Shown here piece after piece: positions 14,625 to 39,971 of a stretch of 58,097 bases of DNA. The notes under the pieces are model-generated. The model did not search any database. It was not told the DNA's origin and saw only the letters and a list, made by a program, of their open reading frames with translations. Source of the stretch: Chloroflexota bacterium (GTDB taxonomy: Bacteria > Chloroflexota > UBA11872); NCBI GenBank assembly GCA_028874315.1, contig JAPPKM010000090.1, forward strand, positions 1 to 58,097, in the 5' to 3' direction. Made by a program: the position numbers and the translations under genes. How positions within the stretch are numbered: position 1 is the stretch's first letter; each line of letters starts with the position of its first letter.

Positions 14625-16241
14625 ATGGAAGCTATCCCCAACACCTGGCAGACGTGGGCCGTCGACCCGCTGAGCGACGCGTTGACGCTGATTCACGACG
14701 CGGTGGGCAGCTACGCGATTGCGATCGTGCTGTTCACGGTCCTGATCCGGCTGCTGATGATTCCGCTGACGCTGAAGCAGATCACGTCGCAGCGCAAGAT
14801 GCAGTTGATTCAGCCGGAACTGGAAAATATTCGTAAGCGCTTCAAGGGGGACCGGCAGGCGGTCTCGGAAGCGACGATGAAGCTCTACAAGGAACGCGGC
14901 GTCAACCCAATGGCGGGGTGCCTGCCGATCTTCATCCAGCTGCCGGTCCTTCTAGCCCTGTACGGGGGGATCCTGACGCTCAGCAGTCGTGGCCTGCTGA
15001 ATGAGCAGTTCCTGTGGTTCAACCTGGCGCGGGAGGACTCGACCATTCAGATCGTCGGGGACGCCGCCCCCACCGAGCCCGTGGACGTGGTGATTGCCAC
15101 CACGGAACTGCCGACACCCTTGGAGTCCTCGCTGGCCGTTTCGTTCACACAGTTCGCGGCCAACTACCAGTTCCGCACGGACGTCGTGGACGCAGAGGCA
15201 GCGATTGCAGCCCTGAGCGACGGCAGCGCCGCGGCGATTTTCCTGGACGACGAGGCAGACCTGAGTCAGATGCCCGCGGGCACGGGTGAAACGCGCCTGG
15301 TGCAGGCGGCGGCGTTCCTGGTGGAACGGGACCGAGCGGCCACGCGGCTGACGGTGGACCAGGTGGAAGGCATTCTGCGCGGAGAGATTGTGAATTGGGC
15401 GGACGTGGACGCGGGAGTCGGGCCGATCGTGTTGCATGGGCTCAAGGACGACTTGAGCGCTCCGGGGCTGCTGGAACGGGTTGTCCTGAATGGCGATCCG
15501 ATTCGAGCACCGATCCGCGAGCACAACAGCGTGGACGACTACTTCAACGCACTACGGGCCGAGCCGGGATCGTTAGGTGTCTCACCACCCATGCGGACGG
15601 ACGACATCCGGATGCTGAACATCGAGTCCCGCGGCGCCGATCGGGCCTATCCGGCCGTGGCGGACGTGCTGGCCGACGGTCGATATGCGCTGGCGCGGAA
15701 TGTGTATGCCTACTGGGGTCCGGCGACGGACTCAACGAAGGCATACCTGCGCGATTGGTGGAACAGCGGCCAGGGGCAGGAAGCGGCCCAGGTGGCGGGC
15801 TTTACCCGGCTACCAGCGAACTTTGACCTGTTTGCGTCGGGCGGGTTCTATATCTCGGTGCTGGCATTGCTGGCCGGGGGGTTCCAGCTGATCCAGGCGC
15901 GGATGATGGCATCGAGCACGGCGACGGGGCAGGCGGCGACAATGAACCGGGTGATGCAGTTCATGCCGATCATCGTGGTGGTGTTTGCCTGGACATTCCA
16001 GGCGGGCTTGGTGGTGTACTGGGTGATTTCCAGCATTATTGCGATCGTTCAGCAATACTTCACCACGGGCACCGGGAGGCTGATTCCCGCCCACTGGCCG
16101 ATCGCGCGCGACGTGATGGGGGAACATCACGCGAAGGTGGAAGCGGCGAAGGCGGAGGCTCAGGAGAAGGAAAGCGAGTCCAAGCCCGCGGCGGCAGCTA
16201 GACCACGCCGCCGACGGCGACGAAGGAGACGCGGTGGCTAA
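14625..16241 (+). CDS. yidC: YidC/Oxa1-family insertase with an inserted PstS-like domain
   Basis: Inserts and folds membrane proteins. It has 538 residues, against roughly 250-330 for Gram-positive-type YidC. Core TM1 is about 30-50 and carries the conserved hydrophilic-groove Arg (R42 in FTVLIRLLMIPL). The cytoplasmic C1 hairpin is 51-98 and TM2 about 99-120. Residues about 141-398 interrupt the core with an extracytoplasmic domain resembling a PstS-type binding protein, including LTVDQVEGILRGEIVNW (242-258). The core resumes with TM3 (about 403-427), TM4 and TM5 (about 443-480). The tail is strongly basic, ending in a run of Arg. Proteobacterial YidC also has a large periplasmic domain, but at a different position (between TM1 and TM2) and of a different fold. 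Confidence 0.93.
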   Translation: MEAIPNTWQTWAVDPLSDALTLIHDAVGSYAIAIVLFTVLIRLLMIPLTLKQITSQRKMQLIQPELENIRKRFKGDRQAVSEATMKLYKERGVNPMAGCLPIFIQLPVLLALYGGILTLSSRGLLNEQFLWFNLAREDSTIQIVGDAAPTEPVDVVIATTELPTPLESSLAVSFTQFAANYQFRTDVVDAEAAIAALSDGSAAAIFLDDEADLSQMPAGTGETRLVQAAAFLVERDRAATRLTVDQVEGILRGEIVNWADVDAGVGPIVLHGLKDDLSAPGLLERVVLNGDPIRAPIREHNSVDDYFNALRAEPGSLGVSPPMRTDDIRMLNIESRGADRAYPAVADVLADGRYALARNVYAYWGPATDSTKAYLRDWWNSGQGQEAAQVAGFTRLPANFDLFASGGFYISVLALLAGGFQLIQARMMASSTATGQAATMNRVMQFMPIIVVVFAWTFQAGLVVYWVISSIIAIVQQYFTTGTGRLIPAHWPIARDVMGEHHAKVEAAKAEAQEKESESKPAAAARPRRRRRRRRRGG

Positions 16242-31179: not shown

Positions 31180-31726
31180 CCGACGCGCGTCAACAGATAC
31201 GGCGGGAACATCGGCCAACGGGACCGAAGAGGCCGCCAAGAACAACTCGGACAAGACGGTCTCGCACCTGACGCATCACCGGATGATCGCGCGGAATCTC
31301 AACGCGCTGCGAGAGAACTTTGGCGAGTTGCGCAAGCAGGTGGTGGACACGGAGCGCCAGTACAAGCGCGGCGACAAGTCGCTGGATACGGCGCTGTTTC
31401 AGACACGCAATCAACTGGAAGCCGTGGAAAAGCGCCTGGTTGAATTCATCGAAGAGATGACCGAAGTGGCGTTCAATTCGAACCTGGAGATTCGCGGCAA
31501 TTCCGATCGCATTGCGGCGCTCTGGGAAGCTTTGGAATCGGTTGCGCCCGACGCCGCTGATATCAAGCGCCGGCGCGAGCAGTGCGAGAAGCGGGAAGAG
31601 GCGCGGCAGCATGAAATCGACCGCCGACTGCAAGACCTCGCGGAGGATCAGAAGACTAACGGCTCGGCCAAGCGCGCCCCGCGCAAGGCGGGGGCCGCGA
31701 CTTCGAAGCGAAAGAGCGCCGGCTGA
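31148..31726 (+). CDS. Coiled-coil protein with basic ends, unknown function
   Basis: A 192-residue cytoplasmic protein that I do not recognise. Both ends are Lys/Arg/Ser/Ala-rich (RSSRARRSRRAS at the start, RAPRKAGAATSKRKSAG at the end), suggesting nucleic-acid contact. The middle (about 45-165) is a heptad-like helix, ALRENFGELRKQVVDTERQY onward. Its start lies inside the CobW gene and its stop overlaps the NYN start as TGATG, so it is translationally coupled to the NYN protein and may be its partner. The overlap with cobW could be shorter if a later start is used. Confidence 0.65.
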   Translation: MASRSSRARRSRRASTDTAGTSANGTEEAAKNNSDKTVSHLTHHRMIARNLNALRENFGELRKQVVDTERQYKRGDKSLDTALFQTRNQLEAVEKRLVEFIEEMTEVAFNSNLEIRGNSDRIAALWEALESVAPDAADIKRRREQCEKREEARQHEIDRRLQDLAEDQKTNGSAKRAPRKAGAATSKRKSAG

Positions 31727-32475
31727 TGCGGCGGGTATCGGCGATTCCCGAAGACATTGAACTCGACATGGGCGACGCGGCTTCGTCCGACGGCCAGGAC
31801 CTGCGAATGCTGGTGGACGAACTGAAGGACGTGATCTCCAAAGAGCGGCCGGGCGAACGCGCCCTGGCGAACTCCGCGCGTGAGCTGACCCGCATGGCCG
31901 GGACGCTGCGCGACCAGTCGGCGACGACGAATACCGGTCCTAAGCTACGACTGGGTGTGTTCGTGGACACGGCGAACGTCAGTGACCGGGATCCTGACGA
32001 CCCGATCCGTCTCGACTTCAAGAAGCTGCTGGATGAGGTGACCGCCGATCGCCGGCTGATCCACGCACGGGCCTACTGCCCGATCTATGCGGACTTTGCC
32101 GGGCGGCTGGAGCACCAGCGGTCGGTCGCGCCGGTGTGGGAAAAGGGCTACGACATCGTGACCAAGTCCATCAAGGTGTTTGCCGACGGAACGCGCAAGG
32201 CCGACCTGGATATCGTGCTAGTAATGGATGTGATCCGACGGCTGCCGACCATGGACGTGGTGGCGCTGGTATCAGGTGATGGGGACTACGTGCCAATGGT
32301 CGACTATCTGCGCGAGCATGGCCTGCGAGTTGAGGCCTACTCGTTCGCCGACGCGATGTCGGAAGACCTGCGAGTGGCGGCCAACGACTGGTTCGACCTG
32401 TCATCGGCCACGAGCCTGCACGCCAACTCGCCCGGTGGGGCGCGCCGAAAGTCGCGCGTGGCGGCCAGAGCGTGA
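31726..32475 (+). CDS. NYN-domain (LabA/DUF88-type) putative ribonuclease
   Basis: A 249-residue protein. After an acidic/helical N-terminal 80 residues, the NYN (PIN-like) domain shows the acidic active-site positions: LGVFVDTANVSD, KADLDIVLVMDVIRRL and VALVSGDGDYVPMVDYLRE. The C-terminus is basic (GGARRKSRVAARA). NYN proteins are metal-dependent RNases or RNA-binding proteins. It is coupled to the coiled-coil gene upstream and lies 19 bases before a tiny membrane-protein gene. Confidence 0.84.
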   Translation: MRRVSAIPEDIELDMGDAASSDGQDLRMLVDELKDVISKERPGERALANSARELTRMAGTLRDQSATTNTGPKLRLGVFVDTANVSDRDPDDPIRLDFKKLLDEVTADRRLIHARAYCPIYADFAGRLEHQRSVAPVWEKGYDIVTKSIKVFADGTRKADLDIVLVMDVIRRLPTMDVVALVSGDGDYVPMVDYLREHGLRVEAYSFADAMSEDLRVAANDWFDLSSATSLHANSPGGARRKSRVAARA

Positions 32476-33959: not shown

Positions 33960-34760
33960 ATGGACGATCCGCCTCGAGCGGCGCTATTGCTTGACTTGGC
34001 CTCACTGGACGTGATGTCCGGTCATCACGGCGTGCGCGTCGCGCATGGGCGGCTGCTGGAACAGTTAAGCCGGAACCGCCGGCTGGTGCGGGCCACGGCA
34101 TATGGCGTGCGCGATGATGACCGCCCCGACTCCGAGCAGCGTCTCGCCGATCTGGCGGCCGAGGGATTCAAGGTAATCGCGAAGCCGCTGCGGCGGCGCG
34201 CGGACGGCGTGCGGCGGGCCAGTCTGGGGATCGACATTGCGGTGAACGCGCTGGAACTCGCTCCTCATCTGGATGCGCTCAGCCTGCTGACCACCGACGC
34301 TGACCTGGTCGTTCTGGTCGAGGCCGTGCAGCGACGCGGCGTGCGCGTGGAAGTGGTCACCAGCCGCGAATTGGCGCCTCCGGTTCTCATGGAGGCGGCC
34401 GATGATGTGGTGGAGTTCTCAAGCCTGCTCGATCTGGTGACGTCCGAGGGTCCAGGCCGTCGCAGTGTCCCTACGGAGCGAGGCAACGCGCGGCCACGCC
34501 TGGATCCTCCGCCGAGACGGCGGTCGCGTCGACGGTCGTCGGCTAAGCCTGATCCCGAGGCAGTCCAGGCCGTTTTGGCGGCGGAGACTGCCGAGACTAC
34601 GAGCGATCCTCAGCCACCTCCCGAGAAATCGCGCACTGAATCTCCGCCCAGCCAACCGTCGGAAGTCACGCCGGCCGCGCCGGCCCCAGCGTCGGTGAAA
34701 GTCTTGCCGCAGGAGAAACTCTCGGGACGCGCCGTGCGAAAGTCATCTGACGAGCCGTAG
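33960..34760 (+). CDS. Second NYN-domain protein with long disordered tail
   Basis: A 266-residue protein. The NYN-like domain (1-165) has acidic positions in AALLLDLASLD, RRASLGIDIAVNALEL and LSLLTTDADLVVLVEAVQRR. It diverges from the other NYN protein at 31726, so it is not a recent duplicate. Residues 165-266 are Pro/Arg/Ser/Glu-rich and probably disordered, with a basic patch PRRRSRRRSS. Its stop abuts the GTG of the next gene. RNase activity is inferred from the family only. Confidence 0.72.
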   Translation: MDDPPRAALLLDLASLDVMSGHHGVRVAHGRLLEQLSRNRRLVRATAYGVRDDDRPDSEQRLADLAAEGFKVIAKPLRRRADGVRRASLGIDIAVNALELAPHLDALSLLTTDADLVVLVEAVQRRGVRVEVVTSRELAPPVLMEAADDVVEFSSLLDLVTSEGPGRRSVPTERGNARPRLDPPPRRRSRRRSSAKPDPEAVQAVLAAETAETTSDPQPPPEKSRTESPPSQPSEVTPAAPAPASVKVLPQEKLSGRAVRKSSDEP

Positions 34761-35633
34761 GTGCGCGTCGCCGTAACTGCCACCATCTGGGGCAGGACCC
34801 CGTTTCAGCAGGCGGCCGAGGAGGCGCGGGACGCGGGATACGCCGGGATCGAGGGAGTTGGAGATTTGGCGGGCGACGTGCCACTCGCGCGTCGCGCCCT
34901 GGCCGACGCGGGTCTGGAGGTTACGGCCGGACGGTTTTTTGCCAATTGGTTCGCCGAAATGTATCGGGATATCGAATTCGACCAGTTGCAGCGGGCCGCC
35001 GAGTTCTTTGCCGACATCGGCGCAGAGTTCCTGATCACGTCCTCGCGTCCCGTACCCGAGCGAATGCTCACCGCCGGACACGTCACAAGCCAGCGCCAGG
35101 ACGGGTTATTGGACTATCAGTGGACCCAAATGGCCGACTCACTCACGCAGGCGGGCTACATCACCCAGCGCGATTTCGAGCTGCCGCTCCTCTTTCGCAA
35201 TCAGCTCGGCTCCTACGTCGAGACCGGCGACGAGATGGACCAACTGGTCAGCATGACGGACCCCGAAAACCTGCGGCTGGCGCCAGACATCGGCTACCTG
35301 GCCTATACAGGCGCGGATCCGCTGGCGTTCGTGCGCGCGTACTCCGACCGGATCGCGTACTTAACCCTGAAAGATCTTGATGCGGATCTTCACGAACAGC
35401 ACATCTGGGCACGGGGCTCACTGGAAGAGTACTGGGACGCCGGCGGATTCCTAGAGTTGGGACAGGGAGACGTGGACGTGGAGGGCCTTGTAAACCTGCT
35501 GCGCGACCAGGGGTATGACGGCTGGCTGGCCGTTGGCCACGATCAGCCTGGACGCGATCCGTCAGCCAGCGTCCAAATCTCTCGAGACTATCTGGTGGGC
35601 CTGGGGCTTGAACTCGAGGCAGAGCTGACGTGA
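34761..35633 (+). CDS. Sugar phosphate isomerase/epimerase-like TIM barrel (AP endonuclease 2 superfamily)
   Basis: A 290-residue cytoplasmic protein related to IolE/Hyi-type isomerases and dehydratases. It opens with a strand plus AAEEARDAGYAGIEG, typical of the fold. Likely metal ligands are in FLITSSRPVPE, LRLAPDIGYL, YLTLKDLD and the final GWLAVGHDQPG. The start is GTG, immediately after the NYN stop. The next gene overlaps by four bases (GTGA), so it forms an operon with the glycosidase-like gene. The substrate is unknown. Confidence 0.78.
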   Translation: MRVAVTATIWGRTPFQQAAEEARDAGYAGIEGVGDLAGDVPLARRALADAGLEVTAGRFFANWFAEMYRDIEFDQLQRAAEFFADIGAEFLITSSRPVPERMLTAGHVTSQRQDGLLDYQWTQMADSLTQAGYITQRDFELPLLFRNQLGSYVETGDEMDQLVSMTDPENLRLAPDIGYLAYTGADPLAFVRAYSDRIAYLTLKDLDADLHEQHIWARGSLEEYWDAGGFLELGQGDVDVEGLVNLLRDQGYDGWLAVGHDQPGRDPSASVQISRDYLVGLGLELEAELT

Positions 35634-36787
35634 GACAGGTAATTGGGCGCCGGGATTTCTTGGTCGGCGGCGCCGGGGCGGCCGCGCTGGGGGTGATGAG
35701 CGCCTGCGGCGATCCACCAATTCGTCGAACCCAGCCAAGTTCAATTGCGCTGGCGAATGTCTGGCCATGGGGCGCCAACACCTTTCTGGACTTGGAAGTC
35801 GAAACTTGGAAGCGACGCCAGACATTGGAAATGGTGCGTGATGCCGGCATCCGCTGGATCAAGCAGCACGCCCCCTGGGCCGATATCGAGACACCTGCCC
35901 GCGGGCAGTTCTTCGATTCGGCGTCCCGTCGCTCCACATGGGACAAGTACGACGAAATCGTCGACCTGGCCGAAGAGGCGGGCGTGGAAATCATTGCCAG
36001 GATTGATCGCGCGCCGGCGTGGGCACGTGGCAGCCAGCCCAATCCAACCGCGCCGCCCGTCGATCTCGAGGACTACGGTCGCTTCCTGACGGCGTTCGCC
36101 ACACGTTACCGCGGGCGCGTGCGGCACTTTCAGGTCTGGAACGAGCCAAACCTGGCCCACGAATGGGGCGGTCTGCCGCCACAGCCAGACGCTTATGCCC
36201 GCCTCCTGCGGGTGGCGAACCGGGCACTCAAGAGCGTCGACGACGACAACGTGGTAATCGCCGCTCCAATGGCCGCCACGCTGGAAAACAGCCCGCGGGC
36301 GATGGATGAATTGCGTTTCCTGCGACGGCTCTACGAAGCCGGTTCGGGCGACCACCTTGATGTGCAGGCGGCCAACGCCTTTGGCTTGGAGCATCCGCCG
36401 GACGCGCCGCCGGACCCCGACGTCTTGAATTTCCGACGGGTTGAATTCGTACGCGAGCTTATGGTCGAATTCGGCTTGCGAAACAGGCCAATCTGGTTCA
36501 ACGAATACGGATGGAACGCCTCGCCCGCCGACATGAACCCGGCAAAGCTCGTATGGCGGCGGGTATCCGAGGATACCCAGGCCGAGTGGACAGTGGACGG
36601 TGTGCGGTATGCCCTCACCCATTGGCCGTGGGCGGGCGTGTTCAACCTTTGGTTTTTTCGTAAACCGCTAGCGGCCCTGCAACCGGACGAGAGCGAGTAC
36701 TACTTCCGCATGGTGGAACCGGACTTCACCCCGCGGCTCGTCTACCGGGCCGTGCAACGCGCCGCCACCGGCGCCGCATTCCCCTAG
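35630..36787 (+). CDS. Tat-exported glycoside hydrolase-like protein (clan GH-A, GH39/GH5-like)
   Basis: A 385-residue extracytoplasmic protein. The N-terminus has a twin-arginine signal (GRRDFLVGGAGAAALG) ending at C26, a possible lipidation site. The TIM barrel carries the clan A acid/base Glu E172 in QVWNEPNLAHEWGG and the probable nucleophile E292 in IWFNEYGWNAS. The start is GTG overlapping the upstream stop. It is paralogous to the first third of the next protein: both end with a similar FTPR-plus-helix segment. The natural substrate is unknown; context points to cell-surface polysaccharide. Confidence 0.82.
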   Translation: MRQVIGRRDFLVGGAGAAALGVMSACGDPPIRRTQPSSIALANVWPWGANTFLDLEVETWKRRQTLEMVRDAGIRWIKQHAPWADIETPARGQFFDSASRRSTWDKYDEIVDLAEEAGVEIIARIDRAPAWARGSQPNPTAPPVDLEDYGRFLTAFATRYRGRVRHFQVWNEPNLAHEWGGLPPQPDAYARLLRVANRALKSVDDDNVVIAAPMAATLENSPRAMDELRFLRRLYEAGSGDHLDVQAANAFGLEHPPDAPPDPDVLNFRRVEFVRELMVEFGLRNRPIWFNEYGWNASPADMNPAKLVWRRVSEDTQAEWTVDGVRYALTHWPWAGVFNLWFFRKPLAALQPDESEYYFRMVEPDFTPRLVYRAVQRAATGAAFP

Positions 36788-36794
36788 GACGAAC

Positions 36795-39700
36795 CTGAGA
36801 CACCTAATTCCACCGCGTCGCGGCTGGCTGCTGCCGGCGGCCGCGGCGGTGGCGGCCGTCGCGACGGCTGGAGCGGTGGTGTTGTTGACGCTGCTGGATC
36901 GCGGCGTGACGTACGGCCTGGCGGATCTGGTCGAGATCCGAGACTCGGATACACCGTCCGTCGGCGCCAACACGTTTCTGCACCGTGAGCCTGACCCGGC
37001 GAAGGTCCGGCAGGAGCTTGCGGTGCTGCGCTCGGCCGGCGTGGGGCTGATTCGCCAGGAGTTCAACTGGGCGGAGTTCGAGCCGCTGGACCCGGACGAG
37101 CGCCCCGATCTTGGCGAGGACGCGTGGGTCAAGTACGACCACATCGTGGAGGCGGCGCGGGCTGCGGGGATCGAGATCCTGGCACGGCTGGACCGCGCGC
37201 CCGCCTGGGCCACGCCGGGTTTCGATCCGCGGGCCAACCCGTGGATGCAGGCGCCGCCGGCCGACAACGAAGACTTTGCGGTCTTTGCCGGGCGATTGGC
37301 GGCGAGGTATCGAGGCAAGATCCGCTACTACCAGATATGGAATGAGCCGAACCTGTTCGGCGAGTGGGGCGGCCGGCCGCCGAACGCGGCTGAGTACCTG
37401 GCGATGCTGCGGGCTGTCGGAACGGCGATCCGCGATGCAGACCCGGACGCGCGTATCGTGCTGGCGGGGCTGGCGCCGACGATCGAGACGGGTCCCGAGA
37501 ACCTCAGCGACCTGCTGTTCCTGCGCCAGTTGTATCTGCTGGGCGCGAAGGGCGACTTCGACATCGCCGCCAGCATGTCCTATGGGCTGTGGACGGGACC
37601 GCGGGACATTCGCATCGACGATCAGCGGGTGAACTTTCCGCGGGCCGTGCTCTGGCGTGAGGCCATGCTGGAGTTCGGCGACGCCCAGACGCCGGTGTGG
37701 GCCACGGAGTACGGCTGGATGTCGCTGCCGGCGGGGTGGACCGGCGACCCGGGGATCTGGGGCAACCATCCCATCGAGGTTCAGGCTGCCTGGACGGTTG
37801 ACGGGATCCGTCGGGCGCGCGAGCAGTGGCCGTGGATGCCGACGACCGTGATCTGGGCTTCGCGCTGGCCCGAGGACCTCGACCCGCGCGATCCCACGCC
37901 CTACTTCCGGCTGATGGACAAGGACTTCACGCCGCGACCCAATCTCGAAGCGGTGCGTGCGGCCTTCGGCGGACCGACCGTGGCCGGGGTGGGTTTGCAC
38001 CAAGAAACGCAGGCGGCAGCAAGCTACGAGGGCCCCTGGCCGCGAGTGCCCAGCGACCTTGCGTCGCTGAGGCTGCACCGGCAGACCGGGGTGGCGGGCG
38101 CGACGGTGAGATTCCGGTTTGACGGCACGGACGTGGGGCTGCTGACGCGGCGGGGTCCGGACATGGGGCGGGTGCTAGCGCGGATTGACGGGCAGGACGC
38201 GCTGGCGGATGCGCTGGCGCGGAACCCGGCGGGCGAGGCGATCCTCGATCTCTATGCCCCGAGCGTCGAGCCGCTGGCGCGGATCCCGATTGCGACGCGC
38301 CTGCCGGCCGGGTCGCACACGCTGGAACTGACGGTATTGGCCGAGTCGAACCCGGACTCGAGCGGCGGCCTGGTGATCGTGGACGGGCTGCTGGTTGGAA
38401 ATGCGCGGCCGACGTGGCCATGGCTGGTGCTGGGCGGGATGTGGGCGGCGGTTGGGGCGCTGGCGTTGTGGACGGCCCGATCGTGGCTTTGGGCTCGGCG
38501 GGCCCTGGAAGCGCTGTCGTGGAGTTGGACCGATCGGCGGGTCGGCCCGCTACGACTGGGCGAGGCAGTACTGGCGCTGGCGGCGGTGCTGTATGCGGTG
38601 CTGCCGGCTGGCGGGATGACGTCCCCGTGGACGCTGATTCGAGTGCTGCTGGCGCTTGGCATCGGCGTGCTGGCAGTAGCACGGCTGCGTGACGCGGCGC
38701 TGGTCGCGGCGGCGGCCATTCCGTTTGTGGGAGTGATCGGGCGGACCGGGGTGTTTGACCGGCCGGTGGGTGAAGTCCTGATCCTGGCGGTGGTGGCCGC
38801 GTGGATGGTGCGCGTGCTGTGGAGCGGGCCGCCACGCCTGCCGCCGGTTCGATGGCTGGCGGCAGTAGCCGCATTCGCGGTGGCTGGAGTTGTGGCAGCG
38901 GCGCTGGCCGACTATCCGAAGTTTGCGTTGCGCGACCTCCGCACAGTGGTCCTGGAGCCGGCGGCGTTCTTCATCGTGTTGGCTTCGGTCCTGCGCGACC
39001 GCAACGACGTCCGCCGACTGCTGGCGGTGCTGGTGGCCGGCGCGGCCCTGGCGGCCCTTACGGCGCTGGCGCTGATTCCGTTTGGCGCGGTCGTGACCGA
39101 GGTGTTTCCACCGCGTGTGCGGGGCACGTTCGGGTCGCCCAACAACCTGGCGTTGGTGCTGGAGCGGGCGGCGCCGGTGGCCCTGGCGCTGGCCCTGGCC
39201 GCGGGCACGAGCACGCCGCTCGGCGGGCGGTGTTGGTGGGGCTGGGGGCGGATGGCGAGCACACGCGGATTCTGGCTGCTGGCGCTCGCGGTCTTGCTGG
39301 TCGTGCTGATTCTGACGTGGAGCCGTGGGGCGTGGCTGGGGGCGTTGGTTGGACTGGCGGTGGCCGCAAGGCCGCTTTGGGCGCAGGTTGGGTTCAGACG
39401 TCGGCTGGCGGCAGTGGCGCTGTCGCTGGCGGCGTTGGCAGGGATCGTGCTGGTCACGGGCGCTGAGCGGATCGGGCAGCTCCTGCGGATTGGGGATAGC
39501 GGGGCAGTGTCGCGGCTGGCCATCTGGGACAGCGCCTGGCAGATGGGTCGCGACAGCTGGCTCTTCGGGGTGGGTCCGGACAATTTCCTCACGCACTACC
39601 GCGCGTACATGCGGCCGGAGGCCTGGCGCGAGCCAAACATCTCGCACCCACACAACCTGGTATTGGACGCCTGGTTGTCGCTGGGTCTAATGGGACTGCT

Positions 39701-39971
39701 GGCGCTGATCGCAGTGCTGGTGTTGTTCTGGCGGGACTGGCGTCGCATTCGCAGGGATGGCCAGAGTGGCTCCGATCCGCTGGCCTTCGGACTGGCGGGA
39801 GCGTTGGCGGCGGCGCTGACGCATGGGCTGGTGGACCACGCGTACTTTCTGCCGGAACTGGCGGCGACCCTCTGGACGCTGGCGGCGGCGGTGGCGGCGC
39901 TGGCTGCTGTTCGCGGCGCGGACGAACAGGCGGTGTCGGGCTGGGAGGGCGAACGATCTCCGTCGACCTAG
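36795..39971 (+). CDS. Fusion: glycosidase-like domain plus O-antigen ligase/polymerase-like membrane domain
   Basis: About 1040-1058 residues. In GTG-start (36849) numbering, a signal anchor is followed by a clan A glycosidase-like domain (about 35-385) with E166 in QIWNEPNLFGEWGG and E287 in VWATEYGW. A beta-rich region follows (about 395-500). From about 500 there are many membrane segments, including a Wzy_C-like part (RVRGTFGSPNNLALVLERA, LTWSRGAWLGALVGL, GVGPDNFLTHYR, ISHPHNLVLDAWLSLGLMG). A CTG at 36795 (AGGA five bases before) adds basic residues ahead of the anchor and is preferred; GTG 36849 is the conventional alternative. Such proteins could both cleave and transfer or polymerise surface glycans; this is inference. 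Confidence 0.8.
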   Translation: MRHLIPPRRGWLLPAAAAVAAVATAGAVVLLTLLDRGVTYGLADLVEIRDSDTPSVGANTFLHREPDPAKVRQELAVLRSAGVGLIRQEFNWAEFEPLDPDERPDLGEDAWVKYDHIVEAARAAGIEILARLDRAPAWATPGFDPRANPWMQAPPADNEDFAVFAGRLAARYRGKIRYYQIWNEPNLFGEWGGRPPNAAEYLAMLRAVGTAIRDADPDARIVLAGLAPTIETGPENLSDLLFLRQLYLLGAKGDFDIAASMSYGLWTGPRDIRIDDQRVNFPRAVLWREAMLEFGDAQTPVWATEYGWMSLPAGWTGDPGIWGNHPIEVQAAWTVDGIRRAREQWPWMPTTVIWASRWPEDLDPRDPTPYFRLMDKDFTPRPNLEAVRAAFGGPTVAGVGLHQETQAAASYEGPWPRVPSDLASLRLHRQTGVAGATVRFRFDGTDVGLLTRRGPDMGRVLARIDGQDALADALARNPAGEAILDLYAPSVEPLARIPIATRLPAGSHTLELTVLAESNPDSSGGLVIVDGLLVGNARPTWPWLVLGGMWAAVGALALWTARSWLWARRALEALSWSWTDRRVGPLRLGEAVLALAAVLYAVLPAGGMTSPWTLIRVLLALGIGVLAVARLRDAALVAAAAIPFVGVIGRTGVFDRPVGEVLILAVVAAWMVRVLWSGPPRLPPVRWLAAVAAFAVAGVVAAALADYPKFALRDLRTVVLEPAAFFIVLASVLRDRNDVRRLLAVLVAGAALAALTALALIPFGAVVTEVFPPRVRGTFGSPNNLALVLERAAPVALALALAAGTSTPLGGRCWWGWGRMASTRGFWLLALAVLLVVLILTWSRGAWLGALVGLAVAARPLWAQVGFRRRLAAVALSLAALAGIVLVTGAERIGQLLRIGDSGAVSRLAIWDSAWQMGRDSWLFGVGPDNFLTHYRAYMRPEAWREPNISHPHNLVLDAWLSLGLMGLLALIAVLVLFWRDWRRIRRDGQSGSDPLAFGLAGALAAALTHGLVDHAYFLPELAATLWTLAAAVAALAAVRGADEQAVSGWEGERSPST

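Follow-up and report, generated by a model that had tools for sequence, protein, structure and literature searches.

We show here that a single gene of a Chloroflexota bacterium joins a PslG-like glycosidase to a WaaL/Wzy-type membrane domain in one polypeptide. The catalytic residues are conserved in both halves, the fusion recurs within the phylum, and in a relative it is part of a Wzy-type exopolysaccharide operon. With moderate confidence, we read the protein as a surface-polysaccharide polymerase or ligase with a tethered PslG-like endoglycosidase that would act on its own nascent chain. The window, which is the whole analysed stretch of 58,097 nucleotides, is contig 136 of a genome of 3.34 Mb (206 contigs, 86.6% complete). 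As the sequence-only reading had claimed, the fusion lies in one uninterrupted frame (36849-39971 on the forward strand, starting with GTG at 36849; 1040 amino acids, no internal stop), and tblastn against its own genome recovers residues 2-1040 at 100% identity. Its order is an N-terminal anchor, the PslG-like glycosidase, a beta-sandwich and the WaaL/Wzy-type membrane domain. The anchor (residues 1-20, 36849-36908, +) is indicated by hydropathy and by a model helix of low confidence at residues 2-16. All residue numbers count from the GTG; the earlier reading had placed the start at 36795, a CTG codon. Since this CTG occurs at the same place in 9/9 inspected loci of the genus (window included) and an AGGA-like stretch a few bases 5' of it is mostly kept while the adjacent bases vary, CTG 36795 is a plausible start of the gene. 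It would add 18 residues, a probable basic N-terminus leading to the anchor helix (36795-36848, +). The codon lies just 3' of the stop of the upstream gene.

The barrel, here termed GH-B (residues 36-376, 36954-37976, +), is most likely a PslG-like clan-A endoglycosidase, with its activity predicted from sequence and model. A phmmer comparison with PslG yields E=6e-9, and PslG is the first match of a profile built from 27 relatives (E=5.6e-26), a match that is confined to the barrel. The structure model of the fusion is of modest quality (mean pLDDT 62.7, pTM 0.53); within it, residues 35-497 find PslG entries as best fold matches (Z 24.1), the C-terminal beta domain included, and PslG is also returned on top by Foldseek. 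This beta-rich region (residues 384-520, 37998-38408, +) is CBM-like as in PslG and is delimited by alignment conservation together with the fold match. A clan A barrel with both catalytic glutamates had been proposed before, and the match to PslG in sequence and fold bears this out. E166 (codon 37344-37346, +, in WNEPN) and E287 (codon 37707-37709, +, in TEYGW) do not vary among 17 fusion proteins whose identity to that of the window is 37-89%, and in the profile alignment they correspond to E165 and E276 of PslG, given a chain-numbering offset of 26 that we deduced. According to the description in PMC11912335, PslG is a retaining endo-beta-glucosidase in which E165 acts as acid/base and E276 as the nucleophile, the latter having been covalently trapped. 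A Pfam search of the glycosidase half gave no match above cut-off. For the GH39 family PF01229 the fusion has no listed match, and the separate glycosidase encoded upstream, GH-A, reaches 13.6 bits against a cut-off of 26. Because the PF01229 cut-off is not reached, we file the barrel as PslG-like and not as a formal Pfam GH39 member.

The extracytoplasmic part is followed by a first transmembrane helix (residues 521-545, 38409-38483, +; model helix 523-545) and by a WaaL/Wzy-type polytopic domain (residues 607-1025, 38667-39923, +). That the C-terminal half resembles Wzy_C/WaaL had been recognized from the letters alone and is borne out by Pfam, profile and fold matches. Residues 811-954 (39279-39710, +) match Wzy_C (PF04932) with E=2.5e-21 and 76.5 bits (cut-off 31.7); the WaaL structures 7tpg and 7tpj are the only matches with E<0.5 of a profile from 28 relatives (E=3.8e-16), and the model superimposes on 7tpg over residues 607-1025 with Z 22.9. 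PF04932 spans polymerases, ligases and protein glycosyltransferases. Five residues, R889, H933, H935, H992 and D996, are invariant across 28 polymerase domains. R889 (codon 39513-39515, +) and the His pair of the HPHN motif (H933-P-H935, 39645-39653, +) lie within a large external loop of 70 residues (872-941) and align with Arg265 of the WaaL chain and with the WaaL motif HAHN, residues which we take to be catalytic. A catalytic histidine and a guiding arginine are mentioned in PMC12800693. The match to the bicarbonate transporter IctB (TIGR00947; 49.9 bits) stays below the curated cut-off of 366.4.

The sequence-only reading had left it to related genomes whether the two halves belong together; the junction is found in many assemblies, and the halves are not always separate. 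Among 41 sampled genomes of the window's class (G000-G040), 36 carry both halves in one frame by hand count. The full fusion is absent from G016, G019, G021, G024 and G035; in G024 and G035 the matches are partial and lie on shorter frames, and the barrel is missing from G019. The locus in G019 (L147, 280-2328, -) encodes a 683-aa frame with beta-sandwich and Wzy domain, as if the glycosidase had been lost. In the rest of the phylum, 359 genomes were sampled and at least 20 of them have the fusion, so that it is present in 12 families outside and 5 families of the class, 17 in total; part of the compared loci were hand-picked, mostly as top matches, and are thus a non-random sample. One of the genomes with the junction, G002, is a single contig. 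Close named relatives are Chloroflexi/Chloroflexota MAGs, and the 13 matches among plasmid records include none that covers 80% of the query. A locus with an odd 1299-aa frame, in which the N-terminal domains are partly repeated (L014, G012:C60; possibly a misassembly), was excluded from comparisons. Every segment of the fusion, linker included, is under purifying selection: against three congeners, dN/dS ranges over 0.07-0.15 in the barrel and sandwich, 0.14-0.19 in the Wzy domain and 0.15-0.28 in the linker, while a fourth comparison (L015) was saturated. The recurring architecture and dN/dS values of 0.07-0.28 in every segment argue that the fusion is more than chance. A viral origin was considered and rejected; 23 viral contigs (L075-L097) match only within residues 58-323, in the barrel, and the Wzy half is present in none of them. 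These contigs do carry PslG-like glycosidase barrels.

GH-A, the separate TAT-type glycosidase encoded directly before the fusion (35630-36787, +), is a paralogue of the fused barrel (43% identity) and a conserved neighbour. In the glycosidase tree GH-A and GH-B form separate clades, and free GH-CBM proteins beside unfused Wzy genes cluster with GH-A (100 SH-aLRT) and not with the fused barrel; this tree and the Wzy tree are quick searches without bootstrap, from which near-identical class rows were omitted. The unfused loci concerned therefore have GH-A by the Wzy gene, without GH-B, and for the examined loci fission of the fusion is rejected as the source of the separate genes. In six loci without fused barrel (L099, L102, L103, L111, L114, L132), GH-A immediately precedes a gene of the same Wzy type or is found close to it, an arrangement which indicates that this kind of glycosidase is tied to the polymerase type independently of the fusion. 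With the second Wzy type omitted, the Wzy tree has 6 changes between fused and unfused states, so the fused barrel may have been lost in some lineages, and/or more than one fusion event may have occurred. In a sister genus (L137, L144, L148), GH-A itself has Ala at the nucleophile position and His for the motif Asn in 3/3 loci; this nucleophile-less GH-A is under purifying selection, and the fused copy there is intact.

The surface-polysaccharide context guessed from the sequence is supported by the operons of relatives. The fusion of one relative (L118+L177, G148) belongs to a Wzy-type exopolysaccharide operon: GH-A-CBM, the fusion, a GDP-mannose dehydratase/epimerase, a second Wzy_C and LPG_synthase_TM are followed by several GT4, Bac_transf, GT, methyltransferase and Wzz genes. 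Portions of this gene order are found in L131, L134 and L132. A second, distinct Wzy_C, separated from the first type by the tree, is present in 17 of the 37 loci that carry the first Wzy type. In the window, no glycosyltransferase gene is adjacent to the fusion; GH-A and an AP_endonuc_2 gene are there and the other neighbours are unrelated. Likewise, no neighbouring glycosyltransferase was seen for the dead-barrel fusions with scanned surroundings, namely L120, L123 and, with one neighbouring gene, L127. The AP_endonuc_2 gene (PF01261) encodes a xylose-isomerase-like TIM barrel 5' of GH-A (34761-35633, +), and a gene of the same kind precedes GH-A in L136. Elsewhere in the window's genome, contig C199 has a second Wzy_C, LPG_synthase_TM and three GT4 genes together, and the whole genome holds four matches to PF04932, four to PF02397 (phosphoglycosyltransferases), one to Wzz and one to PF03706. 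The exopolysaccharide operon of this genome hence appears to be split between contigs, which lends further support to the guess. Two other observations concern the window at large. NYN-domain genes at 31726-32475 and 33960-34760 (+) flank an M50 peptidase with a CBS domain, and the YidC/60KD_IMP insertase at 14625-16241 (+; PF02096 in two stretches) carries, at residues 147-375, an inserted PBP_like_2 domain (PF12849, phosphate-binding-protein type), an insertion that is, to our knowledge, unusual for YidC.

The favoured reading can be laid out as follows. On the external side of the cytoplasmic membrane, the WaaL/Wzy-type domain would accept a glycan carried on undecaprenyl pyrophosphate and transfer it to a repeat unit, as a polymerase, or to a surface acceptor, as a ligase; the direction of transfer is presumed. 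Outside the same membrane, the PslG-like endoglycosidase with its CBM-like sandwich would hold and cut the nascent chain, presumably the one made by the attached Wzy domain, and cutting of this putative substrate would set the chain length or release the chain. Against this explanation stand several lineages whose Wzy domain has no barrel attached, the barrel-less frame of G019, and the position of the window's gene away from glycosyltransferase genes. The fate of the catalytic glutamates weighs on it as well. Both are kept in all 27 class rows (fusions L001-L033), a tally that omits L005 and L017, the latter having both in the alignment of 17 fusions; since they are present in every fusion examined, barrel catalysis is probably used in the window's class. 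Outside the class only 4 of 20 fusions (L118, L131, L139, L154) have both intact. In the other 16 (13 from a first set of loci and 3 from a second) the nucleophile is replaced by H, Q, S, N or A, and the Asn of WNEPN is changed to Asp in all of these except L119. Hydrolysis is thus dispensable there, and catalysis cannot be the sole reason why the domains are joined. In the Wzy tree 12 of 13 dead-barrel fusions fall into one group (97). With dN/dS of 0.07, 0.13 and 0.24 in three pairs, the dead barrels are under purifying selection, so that part of the job of the barrel is probably non-catalytic. Alternatively, the dead barrels may use a mechanism that is independent of these glutamates.

The same observations favour a competing explanation, in which the fused barrel serves the Wzy domain mainly as a clamp that binds the polymer or as a gauge of its length. 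Hydrolysis would then be secondary, retained in the window's class and given up in others. Where the fused barrel is dead, GH-A or unlinked glycosidases would do the cutting. Consistent with this, an intact PslG-like glycosidase is encoded elsewhere in 13/13 dead-barrel genomes whose second locus was examined, and the sister genus with dead GH-A and intact fused copy shows the reverse arrangement. The strict retention of both glutamates in the window's class speaks against it, and we regard this explanation as rather unlikely. A broader proposal combines the two, namely a polymerase family with an endoglycosidase-derived chain handler that would cut the nascent chain in some lineages and act as a dead gripper in others; we put it forward tentatively, as a possibility. 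An O-oligosaccharyltransferase or wall-glycan ligase deserves mention too, where Wzy_C would link the glycan to a protein or to the wall, to be trimmed by the barrel or, by its retaining mechanism, transglycosylated. PF04932 includes ligases and protein glycosyltransferases, and where a locus carries two distinct Wzy_C genes, as many do, one could serve as polymerase and the other as ligase. In addition, PglS is noted to resemble WaaL (PMC12800693). However, no acceptor can be named and nothing here sets such an enzyme apart from a polymerase, so we consider it improbable. Taken literally, the Pfam name, along with a weak NCBIfam match to RfaL, would point to a true O-antigen ligase of lipopolysaccharide. 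Such an enzyme is very hard to reconcile with an RfaL score of 18.8 bits versus a cut-off of 277 and with Omp85, which was found in 0/16 genomes versus 7/14 controls and whose absence argues against a ligase of this kind. The missing Omp85 fits a cell with a single membrane and the barrel on the cell surface, and is no proof of it. Finally, there are loci in which the Wzy half and related glycosidases are encoded by genes of their own, which might hint at an assembly or annotation artefact that joins two genes. Yet many assemblies, drawn from 17 families, share this junction, as does the single-contig genome, and the linker is under purifying selection; the recurrence refutes an artefact, to which we give practically no credence.

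Among known systems, PslG of Pseudomonas aeruginosa (PDB 5bx9, 4zn2, 9g17) is closest to the first half. It has the same Glu pair and C-terminal beta domain and is encoded in an exopolysaccharide cluster, as is the fusion of the relatives. In contrast, PslG is a separate protein without Wzy domain, the fusion is about 20% identical to it in the structural alignment, and a sister clade of the fusion has lost the nucleophile. WaaL of Cupriavidus metallidurans (PDB 7tpg, 7tpj) shares the fold over 607-1025 and the Arg and His equivalents with the second half, but it is free-standing and makes LPS, whereas the relatives of the fusion show no Omp85. PslJ is Wzy-like, so that the Psl pathway with PslG and PslJ would place both activities in one operon and two proteins, where here there is one. 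One account lists PslJ as of unknown function (PMC11891150). Polymer cutters fused to a part of the production or export machinery are described in PMC7112194, namely BcsZ-BcsC of Zymomonas and PgaB, a deacetylase with a glycoside hydrolase; there the cutter is joined to an outer-membrane pore or a deacetylase, here to a Wzy/WaaL membrane glycosyltransferase. A hydrolase or lyase is encoded in many clusters for exopolysaccharides, and the roles reported for it vary (PMC9894940). In the open-licence full texts searched, we found no description of a PslG-Wzy fusion. The covalent linkage of a glycosidase to a polymerase or ligase ties such enzymes to chain assembly, and the active and dead forms that occur in nature make the role of the glycosidase directly testable. 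If the proposal of a built-in chain handler is true, chain length or release would be controlled within one polypeptide and not by separate Wzz and hydrolase proteins. In addition, the fusion suggests that a surface-polysaccharide system is conserved in Chloroflexota, for which the matching named records are MAGs.
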